Positions 1,249-23,810 of a DNA stretch of 24,116 nt are shown here, piece by piece. Origin of the DNA: a virus. Within the stretch, counting starts at the first letter, position 1, and every line of letters starts with the position of its first letter. Made by a program: the position numbers and the translations under genes. The stretch is taken from positions 1 to 24,116 of IMG/VR virus record IMGVR_UViG_3300025413_000126. One strand, written 5' to 3'. The notes below the pieces were generated by a model. The model was not told the origin of the DNA, did not search any database, and saw only the letters and a list, made by a program, of their open reading frames with translations.

Positions 1249-2475
1249 ATGGACTTTAAACCAGCTAACCTTGTTCTAGTAACTGTAACAGATCCTGATA
1301 CAGGAGCAGTGCCAAATGCACTGCCTGTTAACGGATATCTTACCCCGCCACAAATTGCCACAGCATACGGATTACCGGCAAGCACTGGATATGGAGTTAA
1401 AATTGGAATTATCAGTCTTGGTGGTGGGTTTTTACAAAGCGACCTTAATAAATCTTTTGCCGATTTACAAACTGCTGGACTAATAGCATCAACTCTTACA
1501 GTTCCGACAATACAACAAAAATTATTTGATGGCGCAACAGGAACTTTTAGTGCTGGTGATAATTCAAGTGGAGAAAATACTGTTGATATTTTTTGTATAG
1601 CTACTATGGTGCCACAAGCTAATATAACTATATATATTGGACAAACTTGGGCTAGTCCTATTAATCAAGCTATAGCAGATGGTTGTCATATAATTAGCAT
1701 TAGTTGGGGAACTTCTGAATCTAGTGATTTTTTATCAACACAATTTTCTACAGCACTTAATAACAAACAAACAATACTTATTGCATCCGGAGATTCGGGA
1801 TCTGAATGGTACACAGGTGCAGGCGGATTATCGGTTGGTTATCCAGAATCGAGCCCGTTAGTAATTTCAGTAGGCGGCACCAAACTTACACTAACAGGTG
1901 CTAATGCTAGGTCGGCAGAAACAGATGATAATAGAGATTCAAATTTTGGAACAACTTGGGGCGGCGGCGGAGGCCTAAGTACATTATTTTCTTTACCAAG
2001 TTGGCAAAATGGATTAAACTATACAAAAATTACAAATGGAGTCACAGGAAGTCCTACTGCATTAACAGTAAGAGGAGTTCCTGATATTTCAGCTCCAATG
2101 AATGTATATTCATTATATTTTAATGGTTCAATATCTGGCTACGGCGGCACAAGTCTAGCATGTCCTGTAATGGCCGGAATGTTAGCCAGATTCCAACAAC
2201 TTACTGGAATACAAAGATCTAGTGTTGACTATAACACACTTTTTTACTCTAATCCTAATGCATTCTATGATATTACAGTAGGATCTAATAATGATGTAAT
2301 TACTACAGGGTATGCAGGAACAACAGGATGGGACTGTGTTACAGGCTTAGGACCACCGACAGGAACGACACTTTATACTAAAATTCGACCAAATGTAACT
2401 TTCCCTAAACAAAATTATGGATTTCGCCCGGCATCGGGTGCAGTATATCCAAGAAAAACAACAGGTGCTCGATAG
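1249..2475 (+). CDS. Sedolisin-family (S53) serine peptidase, no propeptide
   Basis: 408 aa. The catalytic pattern of sedolisins is complete: Glu109 and Asp113 spaced E-x3-D within SSGENTVDIF, the oxyanion Asp182 in ASGDSGS, and the nucleophile Ser302 in GGTSLACP (family consensus SGTSxxxP). The C-terminal calcium site also looks intact: FYDITVG with Asp341-Ile342, and GWDCVTGLG with Asp362. Family members are usually secreted and made with an N-terminal propeptide of roughly 150-200 residues. Here the catalytic domain begins by about residue 30 (LTPPQIATAYGLP) and no signal peptide is visible. A tail of about 30 residues after the domain ends in GAVYPRKTTGAR. The gene sits between fibre genes, 1 base after the first. 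A virion-associated protease acting on fibres or on host surface protein is inference. Confidence 0.9.
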   Translation: MDFKPANLVLVTVTDPDTGAVPNALPVNGYLTPPQIATAYGLPASTGYGVKIGIISLGGGFLQSDLNKSFADLQTAGLIASTLTVPTIQQKLFDGATGTFSAGDNSSGENTVDIFCIATMVPQANITIYIGQTWASPINQAIADGCHIISISWGTSESSDFLSTQFSTALNNKQTILIASGDSGSEWYTGAGGLSVGYPESSPLVISVGGTKLTLTGANARSAETDDNRDSNFGTTWGGGGGLSTLFSLPSWQNGLNYTKITNGVTGSPTALTVRGVPDISAPMNVYSLYFNGSISGYGGTSLACPVMAGMLARFQQLTGIQRSSVDYNTLFYSNPNAFYDITVGSNNDVITTGYAGTTGWDCVTGLGPPTGTTLYTKIRPNVTFPKQNYGFRPASGAVYPRKTTGAR

Positions 2476-21780: not shown

Positions 21781-22638
21781 TTAAGTACCCCATTCGTTTT
21801 TAAATAAAGGCACTTGTAGTCGATCACTGTAGCGTAAGCCTGCCTTCATAGCCAATTCTGCTACACGACGATTGTTTAATGCATAGACACTTTCGACACC
21901 ACCAACTGGCATTAGATATACTGCGCCTGTAAATCCTGCAAGTCTGTAAATGTCCATAACTTCGATAGCTTCATATGCATCATCTTCTGTTGCTACTACA
22001 AATTTAAGATATGTATAGCCTACATCTTGATATTGTAGCAATACATCTGGGCGAATAGCATCTTGACGCTTTTCACCACTATTACTTAACTTAGCACTAA
22101 CACTAAATGTAACATCTCTGGCATACAACTGCCCTTCGCTCTTTTGCCATTTTAGCAAATAACGTTGGAAGTCATCCGTTAATGCTTGAGTTCCGTTTGT
22201 TTCAAATGTAAGTTCTTTCAATGCTAGCATGTTAGGATGATCTAGAAGATCAGGATAAACACGTTGCCAGCCTAATAAAGGTTCTCCACCTGTAATAACT
22301 AAATGTTCGTCTTGCCATTGATGGTATGGGAGAATTTCCATAATACGATCTGCTATAGCATCTGTAGTAAGCATTGGACTAAGGTCCTTAAAACTAGGAT
22401 GCCAGCTAGCATAGCTATCACAGCCAGTAGACACTAGTGGAAGTTCTTCATATTTGTTATATAAATGTACTACAGTAGCAATATCTTCGGCTTCCGTACT
22501 TAACTCACCACGTGGCATACCAAAACCTTGACAGCGGAAATTACATCCAAAAGTTCTAAGGAACACACTGGGCACTCCCATATATCTACCCTCTCCCTGT
22601 ATAGAGTAGAAAAGTTCCGCTATCTTAATCTTTGACAT
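21781..22638 (-). CDS. queE: 7-carboxy-7-deazaguanine synthase QueE, phage type with loop insertion
   Basis: 285 aa. QueE is a radical-SAM enzyme turning 6-carboxy-tetrahydropterin into CDG, the step after FolE and QueD on the route to preQ0 (queuosine tRNA or 7-deazaguanine DNA). Family marks: FYSIQGEGRYMGVPSVFLRT at the N-terminus, HLVITGGEPLLGW, FETNGT and a Pro/Gly-rich C-terminal part. The cluster motif is unusual: Cys32-x3-Cys36 is present, but the third Cys expected three residues on is Phe39. A Cys in the right sequence context (GCDSYASW, Cys73) follows a ~34-residue insertion, giving C-x3-C-x36-C. The start overlaps the HNH gene by 14 bases. Its first 15 codons are repeated, synonymously recoded, upstream at 23265. 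Confidence 0.92.
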   Translation of the reverse strand: MSKIKIAELFYSIQGEGRYMGVPSVFLRTFGCNFRCQGFGMPRGELSTEAEDIATVVHLYNKYEELPLVSTGCDSYASWHPSFKDLSPMLTTDAIADRIMEILPYHQWQDEHLVITGGEPLLGWQRVYPDLLDHPNMLALKELTFETNGTQALTDDFQRYLLKWQKSEGQLYARDVTFSVSAKLSNSGEKRQDAIRPDVLLQYQDVGYTYLKFVVATEDDAYEAIEVMDIYRLAGFTGAVYLMPVGGVESVYALNNRRVAELAMKAGLRYSDRLQVPLFKNEWGT

Positions 22639-23164
22639 TACAATATTCCTTTATTTCATTTAATGACATATATTTTTTCTCACAACTATAACCTTCTTTT
22701 TTATATTTTCCAGGCAAGCACCAATTTCTAATCGTAGTAGCATTAACATTATAATGTTTTCCTGCATGTTGTAAAGACGGAAAACTCCCGTCTGGAGTTA
22801 TAACTAACATTTTCCAATTAGGTCTATCATCACGATCTTTTTTAGTTATAGTATCTTCTATAAACGGAACTTCAAAATTTCTATCTAAATAATCTATTGC
22901 GGTTTTAAGGTATTCAACATTGTCCTGAAATTTTCCAAGAGCTGTATTACAATTAGTACACAACAATCCTCTAACTTTAAGAGTAGTGTGGCAGTGATCT
23001 ACCGCAAGGGCTCTTTCTAACGGATCTGGATTTTTACAAATAGCACATACAAAATTTTGTTCTTTTAGAACAAAATCGTATTGATTTTTGTTTATTCCAA
23101 ATTTTCTCATTAAGTCATTCTTTTTTCTACGGTTTTGTGTTTGTTCTTTAGACTGTTTAGGCAT
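22625..23164 (-). CDS. HNH / endonuclease VII-like putative homing endonuclease
   Basis: 179 aa from ATG23164, which has GAGGAG at good spacing; a GTG at 23209 lies upstream of the late promoter and is rejected. The nuclease core is CAIC (Cys40, Cys43), VDHCHTT (Asp56-His57, His59) and GLLCTNCNTALGKF (Cys69, Cys72, Asn73), the zinc-bound beta-beta-alpha-metal fold of endonuclease VII/HNH proteins. Residues ~122-150 (TPDGSFPSLQHAGKHYNVNA, then TTIRNWC) resemble the helix-turn-helix DNA-binding modules found at the ends of homing endonucleases. It sits between a 17-codon queE fragment and complete queE, its stop lying within queE's first codons. This context supports intronless homing; target cleavage is inferred. 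Confidence 0.85.
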   Translation of the reverse strand: MPKQSKEQTQNRRKKNDLMRKFGINKNQYDFVLKEQNFVCAICKNPDPLERALAVDHCHTTLKVRGLLCTNCNTALGKFQDNVEYLKTAIDYLDRNFEVPFIEDTITKKDRDDRPNWKMLVITPDGSFPSLQHAGKHYNVNATTIRNWCLPGKYKKEGYSCEKKYMSLNEIKEYCNVKD

Positions 23165-23182
23165 AAGTGTCTCCTCACACTT
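23165..23182 (-). promoter_or_regulatory. RBS-sequestering hairpin of the HNH gene
   Basis: On the - strand AAGTGT (23182-23177) and ACACTT (23170-23165) form a 6-bp stem with GAGGAG, the Shine-Dalgarno sequence, as the whole loop. The ATG follows immediately. A second AAGTGT plus an anti-Shine-Dalgarno TCCTC at 23211-23196 could pair with the same GAGGAGACACTT in longer transcripts. Confidence 0.7.
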
Positions 23183-23189
23183 ATTTATA
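23182..23189 (-). promoter_or_regulatory. Perfect T4-type late promoter (TATAAATA) for the HNH gene
   Basis: TATAAATA on the - strand is identical to the T4 late core. Start is expected about 6 bases downstream, near 23176, which is after the 5' arm of the RBS hairpin. Late transcripts would therefore expose GAGGAG, while read-through transcripts would hide it. Confidence 0.75.
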
Positions 23190-23211
23190 CAAGGCGAGGA
23201 AATATACACTT

Positions 23212-23265
23212 TTAATGAACACCTTGTATGCTATAAAATAATTCTGCGATTTTAATTTTACTCAT
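23212..23265 (-). pseudogene. queE: 5' remnant of the displaced resident queE
   Basis: The 17-codon frame reads MSKIKIAELFYSIQG-VH-stop. The first 15 residues are identical to those of the intact queE at 22638, but 11 of 15 codons and 16 of 45 bases differ, all synonymously. Homology ends after the Gly codon. The ATG overlaps the upstream gene's stop (ATGAGTAA), which is the native-style junction expected for the original queE. It may still be translated as a 17-residue leader ahead of the HNH gene. Confidence 0.88.
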
Positions 23266-23488
23266 CTTCATCTTTCTCTAAAAATTGTGTTACTTGATCT
23301 TCTGCGTCTTGTAAAAACTCTGCGTATACTTTGAAAGTAGCAACACCGTTTTTAGCTGTAATATCAAAAGGAATAGTTCCGTTTGGAATCCAATTAGGAC
23401 CTACTTCTCGTTTAATCTCGAACAACTGTAATGTTGAGCTACGAAGACGATTTATTAAATTATCAGTTATGTCTTTGGCGTTTTGCAT
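23258..23488 (-). CDS. Small conserved hypothetical protein
   Basis: 76 aa from ATG23488 (MQNAKDITDNLINRLRSSTL); in-frame upstream starts lie deep in the preceding gene. Helical N-terminus, then PNWIPNGTIPFDITAKNGVA and a strongly acidic helical end (AEDQVTQFLEKDEDE). It overlaps the gene upstream by 26 bases and its stop overlaps the remnant queE start. Not recognised. Confidence 0.7.
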   Translation of the reverse strand: MQNAKDITDNLINRLRSSTLQLFEIKREVGPNWIPNGTIPFDITAKNGVATFKVYAEFLQDAEDQVTQFLEKDEDE

Positions 23489-23810
23489 TTTTAAATTCCT
23501 CAACATCTTCAACAGCACTCAATAATGTATGAGCATAATTAAATGCTTGTTGTTTGCGCATGATTACAGTAGACTCTGTATCAATATAGCCCTTAGTTAA
23601 CAATGTCCAAATAGCATGCCAGCGAGTTTTACTCCACCAATTGCTTCGTACAGTTGTATAGACAGTAACACTGACATCGTTTCCGTCAGCTTCTACCCAT
23701 ACATGATGATCGTGATCCGATGCACCGCATTCGCACGTAACGCGGTAAACTTTTGAGTCTCCCCAATCGTTCGTTTGCATAATGCCTTCAGCTGGTACTT
23801 GCACTATCAT
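23463..23810 (-). CDS. Conserved hypothetical protein with possible Cys/His metal site
   Basis: 115 aa. YRVTCECGASDHDHHVWVEA has Cys26, Cys28, His33, His35 and His36 close together, which could bind zinc. The middle is VSVTVYTTVRSNWWSKTRWH and the end is helical and basic. It begins in an ATGA overlap with folE. I considered QueD, the missing enzyme between FolE and QueE, because of the His cluster. It lacks the QueD hallmark segments and is not called as such. Confidence 0.68.
   Translation of the reverse strand: MIVQVPAEGIMQTNDWGDSKVYRVTCECGASDHDHHVWVEADGNDVSVTVYTTVRSNWWSKTRWHAIWTLLTKGYIDTESTVIMRKQQAFNYAHTLLSAVEDVEEFKNAKRQRHN

Follow-up and report, generated by a model that had tools for sequence, protein, structure and literature searches.

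Homing nucleases usually avoid harm by being sited in introns, inteins or between genes. Several described systems nevertheless approach the arrangement considered here. In fungal mitochondria, mobile ORFs encoding LAGLIDADG or GIY-YIG nucleases make gene hybrids, as in Allomyces atp6 and Glomus atp6, atp9, cox2 and nad3, where the nuclease ORF lies in a gene, brings a foreign, largely synonymous 3' end (C-terminus) and leaves the native end as a scar (PMC3630166). HNH nucleases also lie inside conserved phage genes, including Aeh1 mobE in nrdA and T4 mobA in gene 60, and these genes stay split in two coding parts (PMC2988022). T4 segB and the HNH gene mobE of Aeh1 combine hairpin-sequestered ribosome sites with late promoters, and in both of them, as in T4 I-TevI, I-TevII and I-TevIII, only the read-through RNA can hide the ribosome site (PMC2988022). 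In addition, I-TevI represses itself via a homing-site-like operator (15/20 identity) over its late promoter (PMC2988022). F-CphI of cyanophage S-PM2 is a free-standing phage homing endonuclease of the DHHRN family with an Endonuclease-VII catalytic domain, and its own psbA copy is protected by an intron (PMC6083498). Finally, in the engineered, Cas9-based HomeR home-and-rescue drives of Drosophila, the nuclease homes into a gene and brings the rescue (PMC7968924).

Here we analysed a 24,116-nucleotide stretch of viral DNA (the window), in which an HNH nuclease gene lies at the 5' end of queE. Like the fungal ORFs, it is a nuclease ORF in a gene with a foreign, largely synonymous gene end and a native scar, but the affected end is the 5' end, the replacement has its own ribosome site, the host is a phage and the nuclease is of the HNH type. 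The nuclease sits inside a conserved phage gene, as mobE and mobA do, whereas the whole of queE is restored downstream. It shares the catalytic domain and the free-standing nature of F-CphI, but protection would come from a re-spelled gene start, and its likeness to HomeR is one of principle only. As in the I-TevI-type switches, only the read-through RNA would hide the ribosome site; unlike in those, the nuclease family is another one, the stems vary by lineage, no intron is present and the fold is a predicted one. On the sequence evidence set out below, a free-standing homing endonuclease probably invaded the 5' end of queE, replacing the part that it broke and carrying a late-expression switch. 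A preliminary description of this DNA had dealt with the switch; it overlooked the scar, the new start of queE and the inverted copy of the target beneath the promoter, and the scar with its replacement is the larger finding.

The nuclease gene (22625-23164, -) encodes a 179-aa Endonuclease-VII-type HNH homing endonuclease with a C-terminal helix-turn-helix. The protein matches PF02945 (E 9e-24), and D56, H57, H59, R65 and N73 are invariant in the alignment of 14 nuclease homologues, so that it has the Endonuclease VII domain with the conserved catalytic residues of the DHHRN type. In the AF2 model (pLDDT 84), the N-terminal half resembles T4 Endonuclease VII (Z 4.7, 35% identity) and the C-terminal half the DNA-binding domains of I-TevI (Z 4.9) and I-HmuI (Z 4.2) by alignment, all with modest Z scores; a Foldseek search of the PDB with the model yielded nothing at E < 0.001. 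Members of the family as little as about 50% identical lie immediately upstream of queE in further lineages, with several scars legible or decaying; queE-start remnants precede the nuclease in several further lineages whose proteins are 50-66% identical, and the nuclease stop runs into queE in nearly all lineages. An Endonuclease VII resolvase role would be compatible with the sequence, but the position upstream of queE, the scars and the I-TevI-like DNA-binding half point to homing.

Upstream of the insertion lies a gene of 86 aa in the ORF list (23258-23518, -), and its stop codon shares bases with the start of the original queE (ATGAGTAA). In one relative (L012) this gene end lies directly against the uninterrupted queE, and in another (L131) the gene precedes a different HNH cassette. 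Between this gene and the nuclease, the DNA reads ATGAGTAAAATTAAAATCGCAGAATTATTTTATAGCATACAAGGTGTTCATTAA and is translated as MSKIKIAELFYSIQGVH followed by a stop: it is the scar of the original queE start, 17 codons long (23212-23265, -) and cut off after ATACAAGGTG. The scar is identical to the uninterrupted start in L012 as far as the junction, where L012 continues from ATACAAGGTG into AAGGACG and the window continues from ATACAAGGTG into TTCATTAA. In this comparison, ATACAAGGTG (23220-23229, -), which ends at the insertion junction, is the left half of the probable homing site. A search for scars across loci with a tight DNA pattern gave no match, the pattern being too strict.

The replacement start (22594-22638, -) overlaps the nuclease stop codon and encodes MSKIKIAELFYSIQGEG, the same 15 residues as the scar, with 11 of the 15 codons spelled differently. 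Its ribosome site (AAAGGAATATTGTA; 22639-22652, -) lies within the 3' end of the nuclease gene, and AGGAATATTGTA also precedes the queE ATG in L007 and L008. The result is a complete queE-like radical SAM gene of 285 aa (21781-22638, -; phrog_2076, E 8e-51). The element thus bears a replacement gene end and the native one persists as a scar, as in the gene-hybrid mobile ORFs, but at the 5' rather than the 3' end. Two features of the queE region are recorded separately. The queE-like protein has CNFRC without a third cysteine at the usual CxxxCxxC spacing, and a conserved GCDSYASW motif further along may supply it. A sigma-70-like TTTACA-16-TATAAT (11/12; 22775-22748, -) lies within the coding sequence of the nuclease, some 110 nt upstream of the queE start, and could serve the restored gene, with such matches in the region being no commoner than in shuffles.

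We compared filled and empty alleles. L012 equals the window over 128 nt with one mismatch up to ATACAAGGTG, after which its queE is intact. L131 carries a sister cassette between window-like flanks, with 8 mismatches in 535 nt upstream and 97.3% identity over 2.7 kb downstream. Therefore, window-like phages occur without the insert, as judged from the left flank only, and carrying either the window's or the sister cassette. A DNA-pattern search found 75 viral loci with a re-spelled queE start, and many of them carry other insertions before queE, namely an HNH homing endonuclease of phrog_655, either alone or together with a second ORF of 216 aa; the scars of these insertions end after codon 23 or nearby. 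Within this sister type, the empty L017 and the filled L154 differ once in 452 nt upstream and have the first 53 nt of queE in common. Past these 53 nt, L154 has the cassette and then a queE start 60-67% identical to L017 over about 225 nt; the last mismatch is at nt 237, and the two are essentially identical thereafter. This is the pattern that homing with co-conversion would leave. Close filled and empty relatives are thus available on both sides for the sister cassette (L017/L154), as a near-identical pair, and on the left side, at the left junction, for the window's nuclease (L012). Nucleases of the window or sister type were found in none of the 67 queE loci from a protein search that had enough upstream sequence, versus 24 of 62 loci with re-spelled starts.

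The alleles also yielded some observations of their own. The 216-aa ORF (L154:1583-2230, +; equivalents in L094, L096, L100, L102, L118, L137 and L165) belongs to no Pfam or PHROG family at normal cut-offs, is apparently mobile alone or with the HNH gene, and is possibly an undescribed homing nuclease. In the element-free L022, queE is a mosaic, with ordinary spelling to ATACAAGG and cassette-type spelling directly after, as if the homing site had been the exact point of a repair or a deletion, and the element-free L015 and L016 have cassette-type queE spelling from about codon 7. Protease-like genes occur as well: a subtilase-family gene (Peptidase_S8 hit, 408 aa) lies among tail or virion genes in the window (1249-2475, +), and another ORF of 679 aa lies upstream of queE in L103 and L164.

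Restoring the peptide restores the probable target, and a changed spelling is expected if the nuclease is specific. In nine pairs encoding the same or nearly the same peptide, a scar and its own replacement start have 28-32 of 45 nt in common, whereas element-free alleles with identical peptides have a mean of 37.5/45 (sd 3.3, minimum 28), in a sample picked by closeness to the window's queE. The observed identities are merely at the low edge of the element-free range, and similar starts, of the TCA-AAG type, are found in phages without any nuclease (L097, L099, L101). Because of the biased element-free sample and these nuclease-free starts, passive import of the spelling, rather than selection for it, is possible. 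The corresponding reading of the whole locus is that an ordinary free-standing nuclease lies upstream of a naturally divergent donor queE, and that the re-spelled start was passively co-converted, as in the intronless homing of T4, where co-conversion of flanks is standard (PMC2988022). We give this reading not much less than an even chance. However, plain intronless homing does not break up its target gene, and no scar of a gene start remains, while here queE is interrupted and begins anew, and unrelated cassettes likewise come with a duplicated start.

The preliminary description had named a perfect late promoter, and a T4-type TATAAATA does lie before the nuclease gene at 23189-23182 (-). 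In the window, TATAAATA occurs once against 4 expected by chance, and the seven-base core ATAAATA five times against 12.9 expected; all five copies lie just 5' of a same-strand gene, as judged from their positions and the ORF list. Across 81 loci of the phage group, 52 of 96 ATAAATA sites (54%) have a gene start 8-70 nt downstream, compared with at most 23% for permutations of the same letters in these loci, indicating that the motif class is real. Of 10 long related contigs, 5 encode a protein resembling gp55, the late sigma factor of T4. The sequences thus support a T4-type late-promoter system in this phage group, short of proof because the identity of the gp55-like proteins is only 31-36%.

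An inverted copy of the queE target, TATACAAGGCGAGG (23186-23199, +), overlaps this promoter and matches TATACAAGGCGAAG of queE at 13 of 14 bases (shuffle P 0.013), making it a candidate operator. When the leaders of 12 lineages were compared with queE, a 13/14 inverted copy was the best match in eight, at the same place and on the same strand (P 0.007-0.023 each); L008 had a 12/14 copy (shuffle P 0.12), and the leaders of L007, L172 and L173 gave no significant inverted-copy match. A homing-site-like element over a late promoter is, at the level of the letters, what autorepression by I-TevI employs, and by this analogy the nuclease may repress itself through the copy. The copy might instead be a relic of the insertion, produced by template switching at the broken site, and no operator. 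It does form an inverted repeat with the target half in the window's scar, and in front of a distantly related nuclease in L173 (2925-2976), TATAAATA is enclosed by a perfect inverted repeat of 19 bp (TTATACAAGGTGTGTGGTA / TACCACACACCTTGTATAA) that contains ATACAAGGTG. We consider a relic plausible enough to keep in mind but rather doubtful, as the 13/14 match, in every case over the promoter, is kept in L166, L168 and L171, lineages with decayed scars.

The leader RNA is the second putative layer of control. On the minus strand, AAGTGT (23182-23177) and ACACTT (23170-23165) form a stem whose loop is exactly GAGGAG (23176-23171), the nuclease ATG following at 23164, and TATAAATA ends on the first base of the stem; these letters had been described correctly. 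The stem extends to eight perfect pairs, ATAAGTGT/ACACTTAT, giving the hairpin ATAAGTGT-GAGGAG-ACACTTAT (23163-23184, -). By itself it is modest (-7.5 kcal/mol), with an equally good stem in 2% of leader shuffles. A second, upstream AAGTGT (23211-23206) and TCCTC (23200-23196) had been proposed to offer longer pairing, and this pairing proved to be the dominant fold of the read-through RNA: a long hairpin of AAGTGT..TCCTCGCC with GAGGAGACACTT (23165-23211, -), with an MFE of -19.9 kcal/mol against a shuffle mean of -9.2 (z -4.5; 0/200 shuffles as good). The late promoter sits between the 5' arm and the ribosome site, as in the I-TevI/mobE-type switches, and the predicted late start (+1 at 23176) is the sixth base after TATAAATA and the first G of GAGGAG. 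Late transcripts from this +1 would begin with GAGGAG and lack the 5' arm, as had been suggested, making the long fold impossible. The predicted mean unpaired probability of the ribosome site is 0.01 in the read-through RNA versus 0.64 in the late RNA. Hiding of the ribosome site in the read-through RNA, claimed earlier, is therefore predicted, but not by the short stem named for it.

The short stem is also not conserved. It had been expected to be conserved or covarying in homologues; it is broken in L004 (AAGTGT/AACATT) and absent in other lineages, including L007-L009. The stems vary by lineage, with TCCTC pairing with GAGGA in L004, CCUUGUAU pairing with AUAUAAGG in L168, L171 and L174, and the inverted repeat of L173 giving a 19-bp hairpin about the promoter. 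When the read-through and late RNAs were both folded, the ribosome site was predicted to be freer in the late RNA in 10 of 11 nuclease lineages, L007 showing no difference. Because this contrast recurs, the regulatory logic appears to be kept, with sequestration of the ribosome site maintained across lineages through differing predicted pairings. The evidence for this is good but not conclusive, because the tests give weak results in most individual lineages (shuffle P 0.005 to 0.60, most >0.05) and the lineages are related rather than independent.

Could AT-rich leaders simply fold by chance, the nuclease being a plain late gene with its own promoter? The frequency of the short hairpin in shuffles, its unconserved stem and the weak tests in most lineages would suit such a coincidence. 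Against it stand the z score of the window's leader and the lower accessibility of the site in the read-through RNA of 10 of 11 lineages. In addition, the second ORF of the sister cassette, the 216-aa ORF, carries an ATAAATA of its own in the apical loop of a hairpin overlapping its ribosome site in the five loci examined, although the late RNA is clearly freer only in some of them and the read-through/late contrast is strong only in L102. We regard coincidental regulation as unlikely. The I-TevI-like switch of the preliminary description thus stands as logic supported by computation; its novelty for an HNH gene does not, as Aeh1 mobE is a precedent and the logic was already known. A terminator was looked for in the leader, and none was found. 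As a separate observation, the window has 12 perfect stems of 8 bp or more with a loop of 4-8 nt, roughly three times the 3.7 seen in shuffles.

An assembly artefact joining two queE alleles, which metagenomic contigs and a gene start present twice might suggest, is ruled out for practical purposes, since the same structure is present in L001 and L003, at 99.9% identity over 4 kb, and the architecture recurs in several divergent lineages. A group I intron was rejected as well: Rfam has no match in the window, 47 nt of non-coding DNA separate the scar from the nuclease gene, and queE is complete downstream.

Taken together, the insertion, the scar, the replacement start, the filled and empty alleles, the promoter class, the predicted folds and the target copy are what can be read from the sequence, and they are consistent with the following cycle. 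In a co-infection, the nuclease would cut the queE of an element-free phage around codons 15-17 (IQGEG). Repair would then copy the cassette in. Its left arm would be the upstream gene together with queE codons 1-15, which survive as the scar, and its right arm the body of queE. A complete queE start with its own ribosome site and different codons would come from the 3' end of the cassette, so that queE would be restored; the restored site would probably no longer be cut and would hardly recombine with the scar. Read-through RNA from the upstream genes would fold the ribosome site away, whereas RNA from TATAAATA would start at the ribosome site without the 5' arm, leading to expression late in infection, and the nuclease may bind the inverted target copy over the late promoter and repress itself. 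From these features we infer the cutting, the exact cut site, the immunity of the re-spelled start, the timing of expression and the autorepression. Homing by the window's own nuclease is suggested by the left junction, the conserved architecture and the analogy with L017/L154. A bolder proposal, which we make tentatively and with more doubt than confidence, is that these are natural home-and-rescue elements of phages, in which several unrelated cassettes converged on one conserved queE stretch, selection re-spelled the starts so that queE is repaired but safe from the cassette's own nuclease and from recombinational loss, and the target doubles as an operator over a late promoter, beside an RNA switch. 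What we rate as new is the phage version, at a gene 5' end, with its own ribosome site and common to unrelated nuclease cassettes; in the literature searched, with subscription journals mostly outside its coverage, no phage nuclease bringing a replacement gene start was found.

The locus shows how a nuclease inside a coding region pays for the damage with a new gene start. Because the nuclease supplies that start, the protein sequence of the cut site is restored, and the site has to be disarmed through the choice of codons. It can thus be tested whether selection on synonymous codons produces self-immunity, and also whether the combination of a late promoter, an RNA fold and a target-derived operator recurs in nucleases unrelated to I-TevI. 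For annotation, when a truncated gene start precedes a complete copy, it can be the scar of homing rather than a frameshift or an assembly error.
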